Assembly (NCBI RefSeq): GCF_016587355.1
Contig: NZ_BNJF01000004.1
Location: 248,001-312,000, forward strand
From: Ktedonospora formicarum
Lineage (GTDB): Bacteria > Chloroflexota > Ktedonobacteria > Ktedonobacterales > Ktedonobacteraceae
Direction: 5' to 3'
Length of the DNA: 64,000 nucleotides
Shown here: positions 21,067 to 61,832 of the stretch, one piece after another
Position numbering within the stretch: position 1 is the first letter of the stretch
Layout: every line of letters starts with the position of its first letter
The notes under the pieces: generated by a model
Database searches by the model: none
Seen by the model: the letters and a program-made list of their open reading frames with translations, nothing else
What the model was told of the DNA's origin: nothing
Translations under genes and position numbers: made by a program

Positions 21067-22569
21067 CTAAGTGAGAGGAATGCTCTGCTCAAAGTGGAAG
21101 ACATTCTCAGGGTCATACATACGCTTGACCTCCTGGAGCCTGGCAAGGTTGTCGCCATAATAGACCGTGAGGTCGGTGATGCTGCGGTCGGGAACATTAA
21201 TGTAAGATCCATTGACATAGGGCTGCAGCGCTTCACGGAATTGCTCAACCCATGCGGTAGCCGGACCCTCCTCCGTATCATTCGTCCAGGGGCAGTCCCA
21301 CTCCATGTAGAACTGCGCATCTCTATGGTAGAACGCCGTGGCATCGGTTGGTATCCTGCTCACCGCGCCACCCCAGCTCAAGCACCAGATATTGGCCTGC
21401 GAGATGGGGGCATTCGCCAGGAAACGATGGACCGTTTCAAGTGCCTCAGGCGGAAAGGCGTCATAGACCCAGACCGAGGAAAACTTGTCAGGGCGCGGTG
21501 GATCGGGAGGGGCAGCGAAGTGCAGCCAGGCATCAACATAGGGCATGGTCTGGATCGTCACTTTGGGCGTGCCAATCCCAAACAGCGGTTGGAGCAACTG
21601 GCGCAACGGTGTCTCCTGTGATCCGATGAAGAGACCAGAGGAGGTAATGGTGCCATCTTTCTGGGAATTCGCGTTGAAGACCGAGCCCAGTTGATCGTCT
21701 GCAAAGGGAGTCAAGGACTGCCAGACGCTCAAAAGCTCACTCACATGTTGCCAATCGGCGGAACCCCAGGTTGCCTCATAGATCGTAACAGTGGAGATAG
21801 GGCGAATGGTGAAGGTGAAGGAGGTCGCGATGCCGAAGTTGCCTCCGCCCCCTCCACGACACGCCCACAGCAGGTCGGGATGGTTATGCTCGTCGATCTG
21901 GATGACTTCGGCACCTTGTTTGCCACTGGGGATCACCATTTCGACGCCAACCAGGTGATCAGAAGCCAGGCCCATGGATCGAGCGAGCATGCCGATGCCT
22001 CCACCGAGCGTCACTCCACCTATACCAGGGGTTTTCTCTCCTCCGCTGGGAATAGCGTACCCGATCTTCCCCAGCGCTGTGACGACCGCCCCTTGGGTGA
22101 CCCCAGTCTGGACCGTCGCGACCTCTGCGCTTGTATCAACGTGAATCTGGTTCATATCACTCACGTCAATGACGACCCCATCATCCAGCGATGACCATCC
22201 TTCCAGGCAGTGCCGACCGCTTCGTGCTCGCAAGGCGACATTATGTTCCCGGCACCAACTGAGCGCATTCACGACATCCTGCACGTTTTGACAAAAGACG
22301 ATGACGATGGGGAACTTGGAGAACTGCCTGGCCCAGCCCAAACGAGCGCTATCATACTCCGGGCTATTGGGAAAGACAAGACGCCCTGTTAGCTTGGTCC
22401 CCGACTCACCAGGTCCTCCATCGTGAAGAGCAGCCATGGCATGATCATCGAGACCAGCTATTTGGAATCCTTCCAAACAACTGGTTCCTGCGAGGGCTGC
22501 CAGAGCCTGGAGAACCTTTCGCCGCGAGGTCGGAGCTTCGGCGAATGCATCAAATCGTGTTGATTTCAT
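21067..22569 (-). CDS. FAD-linked oxidase, berberine-bridge-enzyme type, with Tat-like signal
   Basis: 500 residues from ATG 22569 (AAAAGGTG upstream; an in-frame GTG at 22581 is the alternative). The N terminus has twin arginines, TSRRKVLQALAALAG, a Tat-like export signal. RARSGRHCLEGWSS holds His120, the expected 8-alpha FAD attachment. GIGGVTLGGGIGML and CRGGGGGNFGIATSF are FAD-binding loops, and a BBE-type C-terminal motif YYGDNLARLQEVKRMYDPENVF is present. The Cys needed for bicovalent FAD (GxCPTVGxGG) is replaced by Glu, so attachment is probably through His only. It likely oxidises a sugar or secondary metabolite outside the membrane. Confidence 0.9.
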   Translation of the reverse strand: MKSTRFDAFAEAPTSRRKVLQALAALAGTSCLEGFQIAGLDDHAMAALHDGGPGESGTKLTGRLVFPNSPEYDSARLGWARQFSKFPIVIVFCQNVQDVVNALSWCREHNVALRARSGRHCLEGWSSLDDGVVIDVSDMNQIHVDTSAEVATVQTGVTQGAVVTALGKIGYAIPSGGEKTPGIGGVTLGGGIGMLARSMGLASDHLVGVEMVIPSGKQGAEVIQIDEHNHPDLLWACRGGGGGNFGIATSFTFTIRPISTVTIYEATWGSADWQHVSELLSVWQSLTPFADDQLGSVFNANSQKDGTITSSGLFIGSQETPLRQLLQPLFGIGTPKVTIQTMPYVDAWLHFAAPPDPPRPDKFSSVWVYDAFPPEALETVHRFLANAPISQANIWCLSWGGAVSRIPTDATAFYHRDAQFYMEWDCPWTNDTEEGPATAWVEQFREALQPYVNGSYINVPDRSITDLTVYYGDNLARLQEVKRMYDPENVFHFEQSIPLT

Positions 22570-22581
22570 CTTCGTTTGCAC

Positions 22582-22904: not shown

Positions 22905-23024
22905 GTTTTTGTTGTCCTTTCACACTATTTCTTGTGTTTGTCTTCAGTTTTATAAAAAAAAGGAGACCTGGAAAAGAAATTGTAGCGTTCCCCTCATTTA
23001 GGTTTAGGATGTTCGTTTATATTA

Positions 23025-23061
23025 GATGAGATGTGTTAAAAACTCTTTAGGACTTCTCATC
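23025..23061 (+). promoter_or_regulatory. Conserved 5' leader hairpin, copy A
   Basis: GATGAGA (23025-23031) pairs with TCTCATC (23055-23061), with CTTTAGGAC in the loop. The ribosome site AAAGGGAGAA and start ATG 23077 follow at once. The same hairpin, with loop changes, precedes the two sister genes. About 120 bp upstream of it is also conserved, beginning CACACTATTTCTTGTG. Confidence 0.6.
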
Positions 23062-23076
23062 CAAAGGGAGAATTGT

Positions 23077-23535
23077 ATGGAATTTTCAGTTCGTGCGAAG
23101 CTTGTGTGCCTGACTGTCTTCGGCAGCTTGCTCGCCCTCTTGCTGCTCCTTGGGACGGCCCATTCGGCATCAGCTGCCAGTGTCAAGACCAACGTGCCAA
23201 CGAAAATTGCAATGCCTCTGCCAGATGGTCCAGGCTATGGTGGCTATGGATCTTCCGCTCCCAGCTATAGTGGCTATGGATCTTCCACTCCGCACTATGG
23301 TGGCTATGGCGGGTACTCTCGCCCGTACTCCTATGGCGGGTACTCTCGCCCGTACTCCTATGGCGGGTACTCTCGTCCGTACTCCTATGGCGGGTACTCT
23401 CGTCCGTACTCCTATGGCGGATATTCTGGCGGATATTCCCATCCGTACTCCTATGGCGGGTACTCTCGTCCGTACTCCTATGGCGGATATTCTGGCGGAT
23501 ATTCCCATCCGTACTCCTATGGCGGCATGCGCTAA
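23077..23535 (+). CDS. Secreted 9-residue-repeat protein A (GGYSRPYSY type)
   Basis: 152 residues. Residues 1-34 form a Sec signal peptide ending in AHSASAA. The conserved linker SVKTNVPTKIAMPLPDG follows. Residues ~50-150 are tandem GGYSRPYSY units, some as GGYSGGYSHPYSY, ending GGMR. Almost no residue other than G, Y, S, P, R and H occurs in the repeat. It shares signal peptide, leader and 3' hairpin with genes at 27445 and 28487. Such Tyr/Arg/Gly-rich arrays occur in adhesive, coat and phase-separating proteins; a cell-surface or spore-coat role is inference. I know no named family. Confidence 0.8.
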   Translation: MEFSVRAKLVCLTVFGSLLALLLLLGTAHSASAASVKTNVPTKIAMPLPDGPGYGGYGSSAPSYSGYGSSTPHYGGYGGYSRPYSYGGYSRPYSYGGYSRPYSYGGYSRPYSYGGYSGGYSHPYSYGGYSRPYSYGGYSGGYSHPYSYGGMR

Positions 23536-23599
23536 GAAGAACCTGCACATGGTGAATAGGTGGTCATGACTGGGTCACTCGTACTCTGTCAAAGCACAA

Positions 23600-23640
23600 G
23601 AGAGAAGGGCGGTGTCAGCCTCTCTACACCCCCTTCCCTC
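23600..23640 (+). terminator. Conserved 3' hairpin of unit A
   Basis: GAGAGAAGGG (23600-23609) pairs with CCCTTCCCTC (23631-23640) with one mismatch; the sister copies are perfect. No T-tract follows. It ends a ~60-bp block after the stop codon that is shared by all three units. Confidence 0.5.
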
Positions 23641-23888
23641 GCCTCAGACCTTACACCATGTAAACAATGTTTGATTGTCCATGAGTGGAAACTGGAGAAT
23701 GGAGAATTGAGACAGTCAGATACCCCATGCATAAGATTGATACTTTCCCCTTCCGTCAAGCACGAGGGTTAAAACAAGTTTCTTGAAGAGTGGACAAATA
23801 GTTCTTTCTGTTAACATCTGCTGCTCTTGCATTCGCATCTCGTTTCTGCGAGAATTACTCCTTGTACGGTGAGTTACACCGGAATGTA

Positions 23889-23998
23889 CGCCTGTGGAGA
23901 TCCTGTAAGACCTGGTCTATCCAGGCACGTTGTTCGTTGAAGCAGGAACCGAACGCCAGATAGGGCTTGTCCCTCTTTGGGGAAGTTTCGGATAACGG
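23889..23998 (+). ncRNA. Orphan omega-RNA/right-end-like sequence of a TnpB element
   Basis: From CGCCTGTGGAG through GTTGAAGCAGGAACCGAAC to GTTTCGGATAACGG this matches, block by block, the sequence just after the TnpB genes at 25.8 kb (plus strand) and 56.9 kb (minus strand). No tnpB remains next to it. The two tnpB-linked copies end GTTTCGGAGAACGG, and their downstream bases all differ, as expected for guide regions. Confidence 0.6.
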
Positions 23999-24664
23999 AT
24001 ACTTTCTTCATCCAAGTGGCTTGCAGGATCGCATAGCTAAGATACTGTAGCGACCCTCCTGTCCAGAAGCGTTTCATACACGCAGTGGTGCATCAGTTGT
24101 AGGGTAGAGGGCTGGCGAGTTGCCGTTTCCGGAACGTTTCCACTCTCCACCCTCCGAACCAGTGCTTGCAATTTTCATGCACACTGCTTTCCAGCTTCCG
24201 ATAGCTTCCCAGCTCGGCCCTCTGCATTATGCATACTTTCCTTTTCTGCTATCGTACCACCTTCCCTTTGTATCGAACATTGCTTTGGTCTCATTTGGGT
24301 ACGATGAGACCTCCGTCATCATAGGCTCACGCCCGTCGGCGATCCCACATTTGCGCTTGTGAAATGTTGAGGATAGCAGCATGGTGATCCCTGTTGAGCA
24401 CCATACCGCAACTGGTACAGTTGTGGATACACACTCAGATGCTTTTTAAGATGTGTGCCCCTCTGAGCAGTTCTGACACGTGAGATGAGGTGAGATGGCA
24501 ATCATCGTGATGGGTAGTGTTTTCCAGCTTTAACATGTAGGGCTATAATTCGTTTTCATTTCTTGAGACAGAAAGTGACAAATAGGTACATGTGCCCCCT
24601 TGCCAGCGCCGTGATTTTCTGGTATATTTGTTCTACTTTCGACACAGAGGGAGAAGCACAACCG
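23999..24664. other. Gene-free stretch before TnpB copy 1
   Basis: No gene seen. AGGATAGCAGCAT at 24370 also occurs near 18152, in the leader of the large TnpB. The left end of the TnpB element probably begins near 24540 (GGGCTATAATTCGTTTTC), as a similar sequence stands at the same distance from the third TnpB near 58300. Confidence 0.35.
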
Positions 24665-25798
24665 ATGGTCCGTGGGTATCGGGGAGAACTTGACCTCAAT
24701 AACGCGCAAAAGACGCTCTGCCGCAAACATGCTGGAGCCGCTCGCTGGGCGTACAATTATGGTCTTCGTCGCAAACAAGAGACCTACAAAGCCGGGCAGA
24801 AAACGCCCACCGCCATCGATCTGCATCGCGAGATCAATGCCCTCAAACCCTCTGAGCCTTGGATGCGCGAGGTCAGCAAGTGCGCCTTCCAAGAGGGATT
24901 GCGTGACCTGGATGCCGCCTTCAAGCACTTCTTTCGCAAGTGCCGGCTCAAAAAAGAGGGCACCTGGAAAGGCTCGTGTGGCTATCCCCGCTACAAAAGC
25001 CGGAAGAAAGCCATCGGTGGCGCTCGCTTCACCGGGAGCATTCGGGTGTTTCCTGATGCCATCCAGTTGCCTCGGTTGGGAAGGCTCCGACTCAAAGAGC
25101 ACGGCTATTTCCCTCTCAATGGCAAGATCAGCAGTGCCACCATCCATGAGCAAGCAGGCAGATGGTTTGTCTCCATCTGTGTGCACGAGGAAGCGAAAGC
25201 ACCCCAGCCAGCCACAGGTGACGTCATTGGAGTGGATCTGGGAATCAAACGACTGGCAACCCTCTCAGATGGACGTACCTTCGAGAATCTCAAGGCGCTA
25301 CGCAAGAAGATCACGGCGTTAAAGCGCACGTCGCGACACCATAGTCGCAAGGTCAAAGGATCACGCAATCGCCAGAAAGCCCGCGCAGCGCCTCTCGCGA
25401 ATGCATGCACGGATCGCCAATGTGCGCAAAGATGCCTTGCACGCGCGCGACGGCTCAGATCGTGGCGAGAACCCGCGCCCGATGCCGAGCGGCCGCGTGT
25501 GATCGTTCTAGAAGATTTGAATGTTGCGGGCATGCTCAAGAACCGCAGGTTGGCCCGAGCCATTGCCGATGTGGGTATGTACGAGTTCAAGCGGCAAATC
25601 CTGTACAAAGCCGAACAGGCAGGGGTACAGGTGCTGCTGGCCTCGCGCTGGGAGCCCTCCTCAAAAACCTGTTCGTGTTGTGGCTGGATCAATGAGGCGC
25701 TCACCCTTTCGGATCGGGTCTTTGTCTGTCTGGAATGTGGAAGCGTGCAAGACCGAGATGCCAATGCCGCCAACAATCTCGCGGCCTTGGCACAATGA
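24665..25798 (+). CDS. tnpB: TnpB-family nuclease copy 1, scrambled in the middle
   Basis: About 377 residues from ATG 24665 (MVRGYRGELDLNNAQ). RuvC-I is GVDLGIKRLATLSDG, RuvC-II VIVLEDLNVAGM, the zinc ribbon CSCCG...CLECG, and RuvC-III DRDANAANNL. Compared with the copy at 57-58 kb, bases ~25385-25490 carry three +1 changes that together restore the frame, so ~35 residues (AAPLANACTDRQ...) are out of register. The catalytic residues survive, but this stretch normally bridges RuvC-I and RuvC-II. Activity is therefore doubtful. No tnpA is present, so mobility would need help in trans. Confidence 0.8.
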   Translation: MVRGYRGELDLNNAQKTLCRKHAGAARWAYNYGLRRKQETYKAGQKTPTAIDLHREINALKPSEPWMREVSKCAFQEGLRDLDAAFKHFFRKCRLKKEGTWKGSCGYPRYKSRKKAIGGARFTGSIRVFPDAIQLPRLGRLRLKEHGYFPLNGKISSATIHEQAGRWFVSICVHEEAKAPQPATGDVIGVDLGIKRLATLSDGRTFENLKALRKKITALKRTSRHHSRKVKGSRNRQKARAAPLANACTDRQCAQRCLARARRLRSWREPAPDAERPRVIVLEDLNVAGMLKNRRLARAIADVGMYEFKRQILYKAEQAGVQVLLASRWEPSSKTCSCCGWINEALTLSDRVFVCLECGSVQDRDANAANNLAALAQ

Positions 25799-25955
25799 AC
25801 AGAGCGTACCGCAAGTTCTGCGGGAAGTGACGCCTGTGGAGCAGGTGTAAGACGAGCGAAACGCTTGCAATCTGCGTTGTACCCCCTCGAGGGTTGAAGC
25901 AGGAACCGAACACGAAATGTGGACTGTCCATGTTTGGGTCAGTTTCGGAGAACGG
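25799..25955 (+). ncRNA. Right end/omega-RNA scaffold of TnpB copy 1
   Basis: Directly after the tnpB stop there are small stems CCGCA/TGCGG and CCTG/CAGG and a block ending GTTTCGGAGAACGG at 25955. The same block follows the second tnpB and stands alone at 23.9 kb. By analogy with IS200/IS605 TnpB systems this is the guide-RNA scaffold, with the guide starting at about 25956 (GAGGTGGTCAATGAG). Confidence 0.6.
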
Positions 25956-26187
25956 GAGGTGGTCAATGAGTTCATCTCGCATACGACCATAAACGAAGGC
26001 TTGATGGTGATGGAAATCACTGTGAATCCCCTTCGCGATCACACATAGAATTGCCAAGAAGAGAGTGCCATAATATGGCACTCGTAATGATAATAGTTGG
26101 TTAGTCCTCAGGCGCGCCTTGGAGAGGGCTATCGGTGTCGGCGCTGTATCAGTATTGGTAGAGTTAAACCTAGCACCAGAGCCAAAG

Positions 26188-26916
26188 CTACCGTGTCATG
26201 CCACGGAACTCGCTACGGCCACGAATGAAGCCACCACCACGATCGAATCTGCTCCCACGAATGAAGCCACCACCACGATCGAATCTGCTTCCACGAATGA
26301 AGCCACCACCACGATCGAAATCGCCACTGCGCATGAACCTGAACCCACGAATGAAGCCGCCACCACGATAGAAACTGCCGCCTTGGTAGAAACTGCTCCC
26401 GCCACCACCCTGGTAGACACCACCGCTAGAGACTCCGCCACCACTAGAGACTCCGCCACCACTAGAGACTCCGCCACCTTGGTAGGCGCCACTGCTAGAG
26501 ACTCCACCACCTTGGTAGACGCCACTGCTAGAGACTCCACCACCTTGGTAGACGCCACTGCTAGAGACTCCACCACCCTGGTAGACGCTGCCACCCTGGT
26601 AGACGCTGCCACCCTGGTAGAAGCCACCACTACGATAGAACCTGAACCCACGAATGAAGCCGCCACCACGAATGAAACCGCCACCGCGATAGAAGTCGCC
26701 ACCACGATAGAAATCGCCACTGCGCATGAACCTGCTTCTGCTAGAGACGCTACGGCCATATTCACCAAACAATCCTGGACCTCTAGGCACCGCGACCGTG
26801 CGCCCTGCACGTGTGTTTGAATATGAGGTCGAGGCAGACGCAGGAGTAGTGATACTTGCCCAAAGGAGTAACGCCGGGACTATACTTGCGACAATAAAAC
26901 AGGCAATCTTTCTCAT
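26188..26916 (-). CDS. Secreted Gly/Phe/Arg/Tyr-repeat protein D
   Basis: 242 residues from ATG 26916 (CGGAGTG upstream). MRKIACFIVASIVPALLL...PASASTS is a signal peptide. The rest is low-complexity: YRGGDF and GGGFIRG units, then VYQGGGVSSSG units, then RFDRGGGFIRGS units, ending EFRGMTR. It is unrelated in sequence to the RPYSYG proteins but lies among them on the opposite strand and has the same build: signal peptide, short linker, then tandem repeats ending in -GM(T)R. A structural or adhesive extracellular role is inferred. Confidence 0.7.
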   Translation of the reverse strand: MRKIACFIVASIVPALLLWASITTPASASTSYSNTRAGRTVAVPRGPGLFGEYGRSVSSRSRFMRSGDFYRGGDFYRGGGFIRGGGFIRGFRFYRSGGFYQGGSVYQGGSVYQGGGVSSSGVYQGGGVSSSGVYQGGGVSSSGAYQGGGVSSGGGVSSGGGVSSGGVYQGGGGSSFYQGGSFYRGGGFIRGFRFMRSGDFDRGGGFIRGSRFDRGGGFIRGSRFDRGGGFIRGRSEFRGMTR

Positions 26917-27282
26917 GGAAATGGTCACTCCGTTTCTTCTCTACACTTCAGCATCAAAAATCTCTACGAAAGCTACTACAATACCGTTCCCCGGTTTCTA
27001 CTATAGAAAGAGGCAAAAGCTCAGAAATGGGTATCTGTTGTCGAGATGCCGATCGCTTTTTGCTCAGGCAGGGGCAGAGCCAACAATGAAAATATCTCTT
27101 GCACCATCTTTCAGGCAGAACCCAAACGCTGTGGAGAAAAATCTCAGTGTACTCTCCCGCATCTTGCGAATGAGCAGCTTGAAACACTCAATAAGGCGGA
27201 ACGTGAGCTCATGTGTCGCTTGAACAGACTCTAGAGGATGTACCATAGCAGCAGGTCGCGAAAGACTGGTGGCGAATGCTTT
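26917..27282. other. Intergenic region between protein D and unit B
   Basis: No gene seen. It must hold the promoter of protein D on the minus strand. The conserved upstream block of unit B begins near 27283 (CTTTCACACTATTTCTTGTG). Confidence 0.3.
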
Positions 27283-27391
27283 CCTTTCACACTATTTCTT
27301 GTGTTTGTCTTCAGTTTTATAAAAACAAAGAGACCTGGAAAAGAATTTGTAGCGTTTTCCCAATTGAAGATGTAAATAAAAATTTACATTA

Positions 27392-27428
27392 GATGAGATG
27401 TGCTAAACACTCTTTAGGACTTCTCATC
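27392..27428 (+). promoter_or_regulatory. Conserved 5' leader hairpin, copy B
   Basis: GATGAGA/TCTCATC stem as in copy A, loop TGTGCTAAACACTCTTTAGGACT, followed by ribosome site AAAGAGAGGAA and ATG 27445. Confidence 0.6.
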
Positions 27429-27444
27429 CAAAGAGAGGAATTTG

Positions 27445-27918
27445 ATGGAATTTTCAGTTCGTGCGAAGCTTGTGTGCCTGACCGTCTTGGGCAGTTCGCT
27501 CGCCCTCTTGCTGCTCCTTGGGACAACCCATTCGGCATCAGCAGCCAGTGTCAAGACCAACGTGCCAACGAAAGCTGCAATACCTCTGCCAGATGGTCCA
27601 GGCGCTTCAGGCGTCATACCGAGAACTCAACTGCCAGAATACTATGAACGCCAACGGCTCGAAGAAGAGGAAATCGCAAAAAGGGCAGTCGAAGAAAAGG
27701 CGGCACCTGCTCAACAGCGCGCTTATGGGTCGTCCTACCGACCATACTCCTATGGATCATCGTATCGACCATACTCCTATGGATCATCGTATCGACCGTA
27801 CTCCTATGGGTCGTCATACCGACCATACTCCTATGGATCGTCATACCGACCATACTCCTATGGGTCGTCCTATCGACCGTACTCCTATGGAGGATACTCC
27901 CACGGATCCATGCGCTAA
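27445..27918 (+). CDS. Secreted 9-residue-repeat protein B (GSSYRPYSY type)
   Basis: 157 residues. The signal peptide and linker (to PTKAAIPLPDGPG) are nearly identical to protein A. Then comes a unique charged, probably helical stretch, PEYYERQRLEEEEIAKRAVEE, absent from A. Seven tandem units of the GSSYRPYSY type follow, ending GGYSHGSMR. The unit is 27 bp at DNA level with scattered silent changes. The helical spacer may be an assembly segment. It is directly followed by unit C, so B and C arose by tandem duplication of the whole leader-gene-hairpin block. Confidence 0.8.
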   Translation: MEFSVRAKLVCLTVLGSSLALLLLLGTTHSASAASVKTNVPTKAAIPLPDGPGASGVIPRTQLPEYYERQRLEEEEIAKRAVEEKAAPAQQRAYGSSYRPYSYGSSYRPYSYGSSYRPYSYGSSYRPYSYGSSYRPYSYGSSYRPYSYGGYSHGSMR

Positions 27919-27982
27919 GAGGAACCAGTGCATGGTGAGTAGGTGGTCATGACCGGGTCACTCGTATTCTGTAAAAGCACAA

Positions 27983-28022
27983 GAGAGAAGGGTGGTGTCA
28001 GCCCTCTGCACGCCCTTCTCTC
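27983..28022 (+). terminator. Conserved 3' hairpin of unit B
   Basis: GAGAGAAGGG pairs perfectly with CCCTTCTCTC across a 20-nt loop; it lacks a T-tract. The ~250 bp after it are also shared with unit C. Confidence 0.5.
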
Positions 28023-28433
28023 GCCGCAGGTGGCACACCTTACAAACGACGCTTGCCAGTCCACAAGTGGGAACTAGAGAATTGAGACAGTCAGAGACAC
28101 CATGCAGAAGAGCAAACACAGACAGGCTCCAATCCCTTCTTCACGACACAATCTCTCGACCATCCGTCTTGAGACTCGCACATGTGTTGCTCGCCTGTCT
28201 TTTGTGCGAGCAGTGCAAACTCGAAGGTGCGCTTGCCCGCTGGTGTGTGGAACTCCAGCATGCTCCCCTTGCACAATGATGCAACCATTCAGCAAGGCAG
28301 CAACAAGACTTCCGTTTTTGTTATACTCGCCCAATATTTCTTGTGTTTGTCTTCAGTTTTATAAAAACAAAGAGACCTTGAACGGAGATTGTAGCGCTCG
28401 CATCATTTAGGATAAAAATGCTCGTTTGCATCA

Positions 28434-28470
28434 GATGAGATGTGCTAAATACCCTTTAGGACTTCTCATC
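28434..28470 (+). promoter_or_regulatory. Conserved 5' leader hairpin, copy C
   Basis: GATGAGA/TCTCATC stem as in A and B, with loop TGTGCTAAATACCCTTTAGG and more; ribosome site AAAGAGAGGAA and ATG 28487 follow. Confidence 0.6.
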
Positions 28471-28486
28471 CAAAGAGAGGAATTTG

Positions 28487-28993
28487 ATGGAATTTTCAGT
28501 TCGTGCGAAGCTTGTTTACCTGACTGTCTTCAGCAGTTCGCTCGCTCTCTTGCTGCTCCTTGGGACGGCCCATTCGGCATCAGCTGCCAGTGTCAAGACC
28601 AACATGCCAACGAAAGTTGCAATGGCTCAGCTAGATGGTGACGTGCCTACACATCTCATCACGCCATCATTAGAACCAATTGAACGCGAACGGTACGCAG
28701 CAGAAGCAGCCAAACGATACCAAGAGGCATATCCTCGATCGTACTCCTATGGTGGATCTTCCCGTCCGTACTCCTATGGTGGATCTTCCCGTCCATACTC
28801 CTATGGTGGATCTTCCCGTCCATACTCCTATGGTGGATCTTCCCGTCCGTACTCCTATGGTGGATCTTCCCGTCCATACTCCTATGGTGGATCTTCCCGT
28901 CCATACTCCTATGGTGGATCTTCCCGTCCATACTCCTATGGTGGATCTTCCCGTCCGTACTCCTATGGCGGCATGTATGGCGGCATGCGCTAA
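28487..28993 (+). CDS. Secreted 9-residue-repeat protein C (GGSSRPYSY type)
   Basis: 168 residues with the same signal peptide. The linker has diverged (AMAQLDGDVPTHLITPSLEP) and is followed by a helical spacer ERERYAAEAAKRYQEAYPRS. Then come nine or so GGSSRPYSY units and GGMYGGMR. The 27-bp units are almost identical, differing mainly at CCG/CCA of the Pro codon, which points to recent array expansion. Spacer position matches that in protein B, so B and C are closer relatives. Function as for A and B: probably an extracellular structural protein, not demonstrated. Confidence 0.8.
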   Translation: MEFSVRAKLVYLTVFSSSLALLLLLGTAHSASAASVKTNMPTKVAMAQLDGDVPTHLITPSLEPIERERYAAEAAKRYQEAYPRSYSYGGSSRPYSYGGSSRPYSYGGSSRPYSYGGSSRPYSYGGSSRPYSYGGSSRPYSYGGSSRPYSYGGSSRPYSYGGMYGGMR

Positions 28994-29057
28994 GAAGAGC
29001 CGGCACATGGTGAGTAGGTGGTCATGACCGGGTCACTCGTACTCTGTCAAAGCACAA

Positions 29058-29097
29058 GAGAGAAGGGTGGTGTCAGCCCTCTGCACTCCCTTCTCTC
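29058..29097 (+). terminator. Conserved 3' hairpin of unit C
   Basis: GAGAGAAGGG/CCCTTCTCTC, a perfect 10-bp stem with a 20-nt loop, in the same place after the gene as in units A and B. Confidence 0.5.
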
Positions 29098-29489
29098 GCC
29101 GCAGGTGGCACACCTTACAAACGACGCTTGCCAGTCCACAAATGGGAACTGGAGAATTGAGACAGTCAGAGACACCATGCAGAAGAGCAAGCACAGACAG
29201 ACTCCAATCCATTCTCCACGACGCAACCTCCCAGCCATCCGTCTTGAGACGCTCACATGTGTTGCTTGTCTGTCTTTTGTGCGAGCAGGGCAAAAGCACG
29301 TGCCCACTAGCGCATGGGCTCCAGTACGCCACCGTTCATTGTGCCACCTTGAGTCGATTCCTAGCGAGCGTCGATCGTCCCTGTCTGGAAGCGTTTCGTC
29401 GGCTCTTTGAACAGCCATGAAGCGTGCTTCTCTCTGAGGAAGTCTCTCCCTTCCTTAGAGGAGTTTCCTCAGAGAGCAGCCGCTACGGA

Positions 29490-31849
29490 TTAGGAAAGTG
29501 TGATACCCGCTTCCGCATGCCCGACCACGATGTCCGTGCCCGCTTGAGGCCCTGTGGTGATCCGGAGATGCAGCGCGTTCACCACGATCAAGATCCGGTT
29601 GGCATCCTGTGTTATCGTCTGCTCATTGAGCGTGACTGTGCCCGAACCATCAGCCATCGGGATCACCATATTGGCTTGCGGACCAAAGTGAGCCGGGAAG
29701 GTTGTGCTGCCGATAGACAATGTAGCGAAAGTTGTTGTCCCCCGCAGTTTGTGTTCCCCACTGGGCCAAGACAGGTCGCCATGAGCTGTAGCCGTGATGC
29801 CCGAGGCGACAATGCCCAAACCATGTAGCCCACCAATCGCGGAGGAGGCATCGACATGGGGGAGCGTTGTCGTCAGCGCACCAGAGACCTTATCGGTGAT
29901 GGCTGTCACACGCAGACCTTGCCTGGATAGTCGCACCGAAGGCACCGTCACTGTATGTGTGCCTCCTGTCGAGGGAATCGAGACATCGCCAAAGGGAGCT
30001 TGCGGCGGCGTGAGATGCTGCCCCCGAAGGCCCGAGCATGCAGGTGAGTCGCCTTGACAATTGCCTGACCACTCCCAGTGGCAGTACGTGTGCCTTCCCT
30101 TACGCTGACAGTCAGGGGGAAGGTGCCGCCCCGGCTGTAGGTATGGCTCCCACTTACCCTCAACGTGCCGTCATGATTGGGCACCACCGTTCCAGGGGTT
30201 GCGGCAGAGCCATCCCCCCAGTTGATGGTCACGGTTGTATCGTTGGCGCTGAAGGCTCCGTTAATCGTGGCCACAGTCCCGTGAAAGGGCACGTGTGCTG
30301 AGGCATGAATAGTATTCACCTGCACAACTTGTACGCCCGTTGCCGATTGCACCATCGCCTGACCGTAACCGGAAGTCACGTTGGGTCCCTCTTCCGCTAT
30401 GACATACAACGTGTAGGTCCCTGGGGTGGTGTAGGTATGGCTCCCACTCACCGTCAACGTACCATCAGAATTGGCACTCACCGTCCCTGAGGTATTGGGA
30501 GTACCATCCCCCCAGTTGATGGTTGCCGTCGTATCGTTGGCGCTTCTGGCTCCCCTGATGATGGCCACGGCTCCATTGAAGGGGACATTCACTGTGGCAT
30601 GGATGGTGTTCACCTGCACAACGGGTAACTGTAGTAAGACCGTGACCGTATTGTCGCCGTTGTTGGTAGCTACGATACCCGGCTCCCTATTGTTAAGGAA
30701 ATCGCCCACCGCGACACTCCAGGGACCCTGTCCAACACTATAGGGGCTCTCTATAGGGGTCGCGAAGGTACCGTCCCCATTGCCTAACAAGACCGTGACC
30801 GTGCCGTCGGCGGAGTTGGCAGTGACGATATCCAGGTTGCCATCGTTATTGAAATCGCCCACGGCAACACCGATAGGCTCCTGTCCAACGTCATAGAACC
30901 GTGCGCTTTGGAAGGTGTTGTCCCCATTGTTCAGCCAGACTGCGATATTGTTGCTGTAATAGTTGGTAGTGACGATATCCCATTTCCCATCGTTATTGAA
31001 ATCGCCCACGGCGACATTGTAGCAATAGATGTCCTCTGCCCCCCAGGCCTGTGGGGATTGGAAGGTGCCGTTCCCATTGCCTAACAAGACCACGGCCACA
31101 CCCTGATTGCCGTATATGGTGCTGGCAGGGATGGTAGTGACGATATCCAGGTTGCCATCGTTATTGAAATCGCCCACGCCGATGCCCCAAGGGAGACCAG
31201 CAAAGTTAAAACTAATGGGGCTGCCCGGAGCGGCCGTGAAGGTACCGTCCCCATTGCCAAGCAAGACCGTGATCGTGCCATCAGCACCGTTAGAGTAGTC
31301 ACCGTAGTTGACAGTGACAATATCCAGGTTGCCATCGTTATTGAAATCACCCACGGCGACAGAGGTGGGATTGGTGCCAACACTAGGGGGGCTGCCCGGA
31401 GCAGCCGCGAAGGTACCATCTCCATTGCCAAGCAAGACCGTGACCGTGTTGTCGTCATAGTTGGCAGTGACAATATCCAGGTTGCCATCGTTATTGAAAT
31501 CGCCCACGGCTAACGCGTAGGGACCTTGTCCAACACCAGGGGGGGAGCCCGGAGCGGCTGTGAAGGTGCCATCCCCATTGTTCAATAAGATCGTGACCGT
31601 GTTGCCACCATAGTTAGCAGTGACGATATCCAGTTTGCCATCGTTATTGAAATCGCCCACGCCGACAGGGGTGGGTCGTGGGCCAACAGGGTAAGGTGTA
31701 GCCTGGAACGGCAGGTGGGACGATAGTGGGTCTGCTATTCCCATGCTCCTGATGGCATCCGATACCTCGGAATGCCTCCCTAAGACGCCTGTCGTTTCTT
31801 GCACCATCATTTCCATTGCTGTGAGCTTCTTCATCTCTTCTTGCGACAT
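29490..31849 (-). pseudogene. FG-GAP/VCBS-repeat and PKD surface protein with choice-of-anchor-P-like end, frameshifted
   Basis: ATG 31849 follows AAAAGGAG; the frame open further upstream lacks such a site. After ~50 residues come seven repeats of the type VGDFNNDGNLDIVTANY...VLLGNGDGTF, which form a calcium-binding beta-propeller. Two PKD-type domains follow (INWGDGTPNTSGTV...GSHTYTTPGTYTL). At the C5 run 30021-30025 the frame shifts. The continuation, LTPPQAPFGDVSIPSTGG and on to GTVTLNEQTI...VNALHLRIT...IVVGHA, resembles choice-of-anchor-P domains. No signal peptide is evident at this start. If the shift is a sequencing error, the whole is one ~785-residue surface protein. Confidence 0.8.
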
Positions 31850-32309
31850 GTCCACACGGCTCCTTTTAGCGATGGCTGCTCCCGCTCCCTTTGAGGATGG
31901 GGAGTCGATTGCTTCAAGACGTTGCATACAGATGCACGTTTTACGAAGGCCGATGATCAGGCATTGAGTGTCCGGCGAAAGGTAGATCGAGGGTTGGAAG
32001 GAAAGCACCTCTCTTTCTCAGGCAGGCTGCGTGTCACTGCCCTAGAACATGAGAAATCATGCATACCTTGTATTATCTATAGTACACTTACTATTGTAAG
32101 TATAATGTGTTTAAAGAAAAAAGACAAGGATATGCACTATTTAGAGAAAATATTCGATGTAGTGCAATGGGAGGAGCAACGAGCCGCATGAGCCTTTCCC
32201 AGCTATCTAGTACAGTGAAGAGGGCTGGGTTGGTTTGCAGAAATAATTCATGAACACCCTGCTCAGACGGGTTCATGTTCCTCGTAGAGCCTCTCCCCCA
32301 GCAAGGATA
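31850..32309. other. Gap upstream of the FG-GAP gene
   Basis: AT-rich at 32070-32150, with no convincing gene. GTACACTTACTATTGTAAGTATAATGT contains an imperfect palindrome (ACTTACTATTGTAAGT at about 32087-32102) that may be a promoter-operator region. Confidence 0.3.
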
Positions 32310-60095: not shown

Positions 60096-61832
60096 ATGTG
60101 GAAAAACAACAAAACACAAAAGCGTACAACTTATCGTTGCTCTTTCTGCGGTCATAGTCAAGAACATGTGAAGCGCTTGATTGCAGGGCCTGGTGGTGTC
60201 TATATCTGCAATGAATGCATAGACATGAGTCGAAAGATCGTTCTAAAAGAGGAGACAACACATAGTTGCTTCTTCTGTAATAAGGAGCAGAGTCAAGTGA
60301 AGCGTTTGATAGAGGCACCCAATGGCGCCTTTATCTGCAATGAATGTGTCGAGAGATGTCGAGAGATCCTTATAGAGGAGGAGCGAGACTATCACTGCTC
60401 CTTCTGCAACAAGGAACAAGATCAAGTTCTGCGCCTCATAGCCGCGCCCGGAGGAGTATACATTTGTGACGAATGCATCTATCTTTGTCGGGAGATCATT
60501 GACGAGGTGAGAGGAAAAACGCCTCCAGTCGCAAAGCATGAGGATGTGGAACGATTGTCAAAACATGCTCTCTTAATATATGAACAGCAGTTGGGAGCTA
60601 CGCATCCCGACACTGCTTCGGCACTTACAAACTTGGCAATTCTCCACTGGTGCAAGGGGGAGTATGGAGAAGCCGAACCGTTGCTCCAACGTGCCCTCTC
60701 GATTCATGAACAACCATTGGAGTCCCCATATCCTCGTCTAACGATCAGCCTACATCGTCTGGCAGTTCTCTATCAAATACAGAGAAAGTACAAGGAGGCG
60801 GAGCCACTCCTGCAACGTGCGCTCTCCATTACTGAAAAGCAATTGGGAGCCACGCATCTCGATACGATGGAGCGTCTTAATGACTTGGTAGGACTCTACC
60901 GAACACAGCAAAAATATGAAGAAGCGGAGCCACTCCTGCAACGTGCGCTCTCCATTACTGAAAAGCAATTGGGAGCCACGCATCTCGATACCGCTCGTAG
61001 CTTGCATAATCTTGCAGAACTCTACCATGACCAGGAGCGATACAAAGAGGCGGAACCGTTATACTATCGTGCCCTGGCTATTCGTGAGCAGCTATTAGGA
61101 GCCTCGCATCTTGATACGGCGGTCAGCCTCAATAACCTTGCAGAACTCTACTGTGATCAGGAGCGATACAAAGAAGCGGAGCCATTATATCAGCGTGCCC
61201 TGACTATCCGTGAGCAGCTATTAGGGGCTACACATCTCGACACAGCTTGTAGCATCAATAACCTTGCAGAACTTTACCGTGACCAAAAGCAATATGAGGA
61301 GGCAGAACCGCTGCTCCAGCGTGCACTGGCTATTCGTGAGCAACTATTGGGAGCTTCGCATCCTGATACAGCAGATAGCCTCGATAACCTTGCAGAACTC
61401 TACCATGACCAGGAGCGATACAAAGAAGCGGAGCCATTGTATCAGCGTGCTCTCTCGATCTATGAGCAGCAATTGGGGATCACCCATACTGATACCACTC
61501 GCAATATGAATAATTTAGCCCAACTTTACCGTGACCAGAAGCGATACGAGGAAGCAGAGCCACTGCTCCAGCGGACTCTCTTGATTGCTGAGCAGCAATT
61601 GGGAGTTTCGCACCCCGACACAGCGGATCGCTTGAACAATTTAGCTGGACTTTACCATGACCAGAGGCGATACAAGGAGGCAGAACCGTTATACCAGCGT
61701 GCACTCTCAATCTATGAGCAGCAGTTAGAGGGCACAGATCCCATGCCCCAAAAGATGCGCACGAATTATGCGTCCTTACTACAAGCAATGGGGCGTGATG
61801 AGGAAGCAAAGAATTTGGAAGAAGATTCGTGA
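60096..61832 (+). CDS. Triple ClpX-type zinc-finger and TPR protein
   Basis: 578 residues. Three tandem C4 zinc-binding domains of the ClpX N-terminal type: C15/C18/C38/C41, C58/C61/C81/C84 and C101/C104/C124/C127, each with the pattern CSFCxxxxxxVxRLIxxPxG...ICxEC. From ~155 to 565 come about nine 42-residue TPRs of kinesin-light-chain type ([20 protein letters not shown]...[18 protein letters not shown]). No AAA+ ATPase domain and no signal peptide. In ClpX the zinc domain dimerises and binds adaptors and substrates, so this may be an adaptor or scaffold for Clp-type proteolysis. Two repeats share 68 identical bases (60798-60865 and 60924-60991), showing recent expansion. ATG 60096 follows GGAAGATAT. 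Confidence 0.85.

Follow-up and report, generated by a model that had tools for sequence, protein, structure and literature searches.

A 64,000-nucleotide stretch of the Ktedonospora formicarum genome (contig NZ_BNJF01000004.1, positions 248,001 to 312,000; hereafter the window) carries three forward-strand genes whose products combine a common signal peptide with different tandem repeats. Gene 1 (23077 to 23535; 152 amino acids) encodes the signal peptide, a linker, a GYGSS segment and GGYS(R/H)PYSY repeats (five GGYSRPYSY and two GGYSHPYSY units). Gene 2 (27445 to 27918; 157 amino acids) has a charged spacer between the linker and six GSSYRPYSY repeats, and gene 3 (28487 to 28993; 168 amino acids) a charged spacer followed by eight GGSSRPYSY repeats. 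Open reading frames with ATG starts are present at all three positions, where a first-pass annotation of the sequence had placed them, and the arrays have the nine-residue period and RPYSYG core that it described. Tandem Repeats Finder (TRF) gave a period of 27 nucleotides in each gene (scores 220, 238 and 433 for genes 1, 2 and 3).

The first 45 residues are nearly identical across the three proteins and, in profile searches, fit the signal-peptide pattern M-K-x-S-V-x-x-K-x-V-C-L...ALLLL-x-G-T-A-H-S-A-S-A-A-S. The DNA for the signal peptide and linker is 92-94% identical among the genes, the leaders 79-83% and the trailers 81-94%, so that the description of the outer DNA as near-identical holds for the signal peptide but is too strong for the leader. 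The trailer of gene 1 (23536 to 23736) is common to genes 2 and 3; that of gene 2 (27909 to 28208) shows 92% identity to that of gene 3 (28984 to 29283), all three being on the forward strand. The charged spacer, described as helical in the first-pass annotation, is visible in genes 2 and 3, and AlphaFold2, run on the gene 2 sequence alone, models residues 65-86 within it as a helix and the repeats as low-confidence coil (predicted local distance difference test score, pLDDT, about 43). Such a spacer is present in some paralogues elsewhere and absent in others, so that genes 2 and 3 need not have gained it, as that annotation proposed.

A dispersed family in Ktedonobacter

Searches covered 47 genomes: this 10.67-Mb genome, three other Ktedonobacter genomes and 43 other Ktedonobacterales. 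With the signal peptide and linker of gene 2 as query, more than 30 places in this genome matched (E up to 1). Two signal-peptide profiles matched overlapping sets, class A 23 places at E ≤ 0.001 and class B 24. There are about 30 distinct, dispersed family loci in this genome, of which two or three are damaged or uncertain. Homologues of the cassette were expected in related genomes and are present in all three other Ktedonobacter genomes, with seven to ten members each by profile. The named match, Ktedonobacter sp. SOSP1-85, sets the window within or close to that genus. Among the 43 other Ktedonobacterales, the class-A profile had no match and the class-B profile only one marginal match (E 9.2e-4). 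Judged by these profiles, the cassette family is confined to Ktedonobacter, a genus of soil bacteria.

The exported parts are of many types: RPYSYG, YPYYRP, YYRPYYYP, YPVYPRPVI, GWNGGNTG, VVYPRPVVYPVP, Gln/Phe-rich, GRGFGFGRGF, globular and others. RPYSYG arrays occur in six genes, all in this genome, among the 47 searched. Nearly all mature parts have a net positive charge and most have a negative grand average of hydropathicity (GRAVY), with 10-48% aromatic residues; most are also hydrophilic, with a high content of Gly, Tyr, Pro, Ser or other aromatics. Their length is about 60-220 amino acids, some short members having 51-65 with aromatic ends, and the window proteins contain no Cys. In three loci (L045, L052 and L058), the same cassette is joined to a mature domain without repeats (FVGFWYAHGADVVVNADGQAHFGARTYTWC...), probably globular, that has no Pfam match. 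The four window proteins, including the class-B protein described below, gave no significant match in Pfam or NCBIfam, and a PDB sequence search also found nothing significant, in agreement with the view that they belong to no named family, and no description of such a family was found in the literature.

The fourth window member lies on the reverse strand (26188 to 26916; 242 amino acids). It encodes a signal peptide (MRKIACFIV...TPASAS) and GGGFIRG, VYQGG and GGVSSSG repeats in the mature region, and matches the class-B signal-peptide profile (E 1.1e-16; G000:C4:274803-274916). Upstream on the same strand is a promoter-like GAGCTT-N11-TATA ... TGTAG block (26973 to 27022; pattern match G000:C4:274973-275022); divergent class-B members, this gene among them, retain only the GAG(T/C)TT-N11-TATA core. 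By profile and pattern, the gene is a distant, divergent member of the cassette family. The family of the first-pass annotation thus exists, but its scope had been understated: it has about 30 members, more types of interior, a fourth member in the window, a promoter-like block and a covarying hairpin.

Other features of the window were recorded from translation or TRF output. In the interval separating gene 1 from the class-B gene is a TnpB-like transposon protein (IS605/IS607 type; 24563 to 25798, forward). Gene 3 adjoins a reverse-strand gene (29948 to 32008) whose large product has PKD-like segments and 'VGDFNNDGNLDIV' repeats of FG-GAP/VCBS-like type. A 126-nucleotide tandem array of 7.4 copies (60789 to 61723) resembles TPR repeats coding LLQRAL....

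Promoter-like block and hairpin in the leader

The leaders of genes 1, 2 and 3 (22909 to 23076, 27277 to 27444 and 28319 to 28486, forward strand) have the same layout. In gene 1, a promoter-like block, CTTGTGTTTGTCTTCAGTTTTATAA (22931 to 22955), is followed by TAGCG (at about 22983), a hairpin, GATGAGATG...TTCTCATC (about 23027 to 23063), and a Shine-Dalgarno-like purine run, as seen in alignments A1, A4 and A5, the pattern search and a covariance-model match. The corresponding elements of gene 2 (block 27298 to 27322, TAGCG at about 27350, hairpin at about 27397 to 27433) and gene 3 (28340 to 28364, about 28392 and about 28439 to 28475) were identified by alignment, pattern, covariation and covariance model.

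In the 22 class-A leaders examined, those of genes 1-3 included, CTTGWGTTTGTC-N8-TATAA lies about 145 nucleotides ahead of the start and is followed by TAGYG; TATAA (TATGA in two) was at -122 to -128 from the start in every one. The aligned order is CTTG(A/T)GTTTGTC, N8, TATAA, TAGYG about 30 bases on, the hairpin and, a few bases later, the ribosome-binding site. The pattern CTTGNGTTTGYC-N(6-11)-TATAA had nine matches genome-wide, all nine ahead of family genes, while the reversed-pattern control had none. A pattern that includes TAGYG had 19 matches in the four Ktedonobacter genomes, at least two of which do not precede an intact family gene, and none in the 43 others.

The hairpin was assessed by a covariation test of its 16-pair helix in 20 leaders, with slid partners as control. 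Standard pairs filled 77% of cells (34-50% with slid partners), there were 50 two-sided changes (at most 24) and the covariation score was 0.448 (at most 0.163). The same helix leads by less, 69% against at most 54%, in the longer 18-sequence alignment A5, and the fold z-score was ≤ -3 in several leaders. RNAalifold predicted no structure from the mixed alignment of the 20 leaders because the sequences are too different, and class-B leaders have no such hairpin by a shuffling test. A covariance model of the leader had 24 matches in the four Ktedonobacter genomes, 22 of them preceding a family gene (genes 1-3 included), and none in the 43 other genomes under strict filters. Alignments and models together indicate that block and hairpin are common to the class-A half of the family, whereas all of the roughly 30 family members share the export signal.

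Two leaders stand apart from their expected genes. In one case (L084/L109, G032:C8:307090-307233), about 1.2 kb of additional DNA, probably an insertion sequence, lies between the leader and L058 (C8:308428), the likely gene. The other (L080/L113, G032:C7:1899448-1899587) is an orphan without a signal-peptide gene, upstream of an unrelated secreted protein with DG...GYSQGL repeats and a weak Yae1_N match.

Analogous 5' hairpins, that of aprE among them, suggest that its likely role is in mRNA stability or translation. In aprE of Bacillus subtilis and in ompA and papA of Escherichia coli, a stem-loop in the 5' untranslated region (UTR) occurs together with the ribosome-binding site, and the two support long mRNA life according to works cited in PMC3997798. 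Unlike these, the Ktedonobacter hairpin adjoins the ribosome-binding site and not the 5' end, and is common to a dispersed gene family, in which its role is putative. Its constant position just ahead of the Shine-Dalgarno site, its covariation and its tie to the cassette family would also suit a ligand- or temperature-responsive regulatory RNA or the target of an RNA-binding protein. This is unlikely, as the helix sequence varies freely and there is no conserved loop or bulge motif, unlike aptamers; moreover, Rfam 15 gave no covariance-model match at gathering score in the whole window.

Selection on the arrays and divergence of interiors

The repeat units are under strong purifying selection. 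Pairwise comparison of the six units of gene 2 gave 46 differences at 110 synonymous sites (proportion, pS, 0.42) and none at 295 nonsynonymous sites (pN 0). In the other five RPYSYG genes, pN/pS within arrays was 0 to 0.25, and between orthologous members it was 0.2-0.5. With pN far below pS in the units, the arrays are coding, and a chance open frame through a minisatellite is ruled out. These values bear on whether the family is neutral junk, in which duplicated promoter-signal-peptide segments have captured unstable minisatellite DNA of little function. The genus restriction of the family, the orphan leader and the leader cut off by insertion would fit such an origin, as would the wealth of transposons and duplications in Ktedonobacter genomes (PMC3236041). 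It is nevertheless very improbable given the low pN of arrays and orthologues and a hairpin kept through compensatory change.

Diversified secreted effectors typically pair a constant signal peptide with mature parts that differ radically, and the net positive charge and the short members with aromatic ends might point to cationic bacteriocin- or antimicrobial-like products aimed at other organisms. Most members, however, are longer, with strongly hydrophilic perfect repeats and neither an amphipathic nor a disulfide-rich design; the neighbours of family genes include no recurrent immunity or export genes, and selection on the units is purifying, not diversifying. Effectors therefore seem quite improbable.

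The interiors differ where the outer parts agree. Gene 1 (L002) and L007 show 90% identity over 1.65 kb that ends within the coding region for signal peptide and linker, beyond which the linker and the repeat type differ. Arrays have also diverged at orthologous loci: L039 and L041, from two other species, have flanks 93-95% identical and arrays that align only with 52 gap columns, and the C-terminal parts of L035 and L036 are dissimilar. Alignments and profiles across the family thus bear out the proposal of a conserved expression and export cassette with variable interiors. That interiors are interchangeable is suggested indirectly, by 90%-identical upstream DNA before unlike interiors. The claim that the arrays change fast stands between paralogues and species but fails within a single array, where the units are conserved.

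The C-terminal GRGF tail of the class-A member L036 (L036:1492-1803) is 90% identical over 41 nucleotides to class-B arrays of the same genome, and an early stop appears to have removed this tail from the orthologue L035. The likeness does not establish a recent transfer, as L035 carries homologous DNA.

A proposed surface or matrix role and known systems

Like actinomycetes, the Ktedonobacteria, a group within the Chloroflexota, produce hyphae and exospores. The congener K. racemifer is Gram-positive and filamentous; it forms aerial hyphae and bears round spores in clusters (PMC3236041). We lean towards the explanation that the cassette genes form a family restricted to Ktedonobacter and regulated together, whose products are abundant, Sec-exported structural proteins of a matrix or of the surface of hyphae or spores. 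A class-A gene would be an autonomous single-gene cassette, and we infer that the common promoter drives its transcription. A 5' UTR of about 110 nucleotides would end in the hairpin just ahead of the ribosome-binding site, where it probably stabilises the mRNA or adjusts translation to give a high yield. Export of the chain would depend on the conserved signal peptide, presumably cleaved after ASA, and the mature part, usually a disordered array of aromatic, Gly, Pro and Ser residues with net positive charge, may assemble on the anionic wall, the hyphal sheath or the spore surface as a material. Interiors would diversify through expansion, contraction and replacement of arrays, with the outer cassette retained. 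Developmental timing and cross-linking through tyrosine are guesses. The spore coat and the aerial-hyphae sheath, which the first-pass annotation put forward, are candidate locations, and the phase separation that it raised would be a further possibility.

An FAD-linked oxidase (FAD_binding_4 and BBE domains; 21067 to 22581, reverse), encoded divergently from gene 1 and with an N-terminus of twin-arginine-like type (SRRKVLQALAAL), is a possible source of H2O2 for tyrosine cross-linking. Family gene L007 has an intact copy (96% identical) next to it (L125:6597-8138), and L003 (L124) a remnant; the oxidase may instead have hitch-hiked in a segmental duplication, being intact at one locus and a remnant at the other. 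A functional link with the cassette genes was not accepted, since only the remnant is present beside L003.

Several points weigh against a surface or matrix role. Signal peptides were assigned by eye, and the single-sequence AlphaFold2 coil is weak evidence for disorder of the arrays. The spacings of the promoter-like block do not fit the sigma-28, sigma-B or sigma-H consensus. Flanking genes vary between loci, which makes each gene an autonomous unit but offers no functional clue. In the window proteins, Pfam shows no LPXTG or other wall anchor, and the C-termini are short (GGMR, GSMR). Finally, the globular mature parts of L045, L052 and L058 mean that the label of structural repeat protein misses some members.

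Adhesins, with secreted antimicrobials, are the main rivals of a coat or matrix role. As adhesins or surface-binding matrix proteins, the arrays would serve as flexible stalks or as sticky chains that mediate attachment to cellulose, minerals or other hyphae, and would not form a coat. Tyr/Arg/Gly-rich arrays without a globular core suit adhesion, and variation of length and sequence is common in adhesins. The proteins, however, are small, and those of the window have no Pfam binding or anchor domain, which leaves this rival doubtful, if less so than antimicrobial effectors.

No paper describing surface proteins of Ktedonobacteria was found. The roughly 30 family genes of one genome are concrete candidates for such proteins, and the compact regulatory signature offers a way to find more. 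Among bacteria, the family is a clear example of signals for transcription, translation and export being retained as the exported sequence is replaced from one species to another, and it opens the evolution of new extracellular materials to direct tests. More tentatively, it may be a 'materials cassette': promoter, hairpin and export signal would stay constant, and new repetitive or globular interiors would be taken up and replaced within them, so that each species has its own set of extracellular structural proteins, a possible prokaryotic counterpart of silk and shell-matrix families.

The chaplins of Streptomyces are likewise a multigene family of small secreted hyphal-surface proteins in mycelial spore formers. 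Chaplins have a defined hydrophobic amyloid domain, whereas the Ktedonobacter mature parts are hydrophilic, and Pfam searches of the window proteins and of six more, four of them other cassette members, detected no chaplin domain. With CotG-like spore coat proteins of Bacillus, the likeness is one of organisation only, namely positively charged, disordered tandem repeats. CotG-like proteins have conserved ends and central charged disordered repeats that vary by species, and include members without primary-sequence homology (PMC9765600). CotG, however, is made in the mother cell, has no Sec signal peptide, is phosphorylated by CotH and is rich in Lys, Arg and His, while the Ktedonobacter proteins have signal peptides, are rich in Tyr, Gly, Ser and Pro and have a common 5' UTR hairpin; there is no Pfam link.

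Shematrins and KRMPs of the pearl oyster and silk-like proteins are also secreted multigene families with a signal peptide and Gly/Tyr-rich repeats. Among relatives of KRMP1, the N-terminal part is retained and the repeat region replaced (PMC3120837). These are animal proteins, and the likeness is in logic and composition, not homology. The cassette family belongs to neither the CotG-like nor the animal shell-matrix families; unusual in it are the genus restriction and the single promoter-hairpin-signal cassette common to many unlike interiors.

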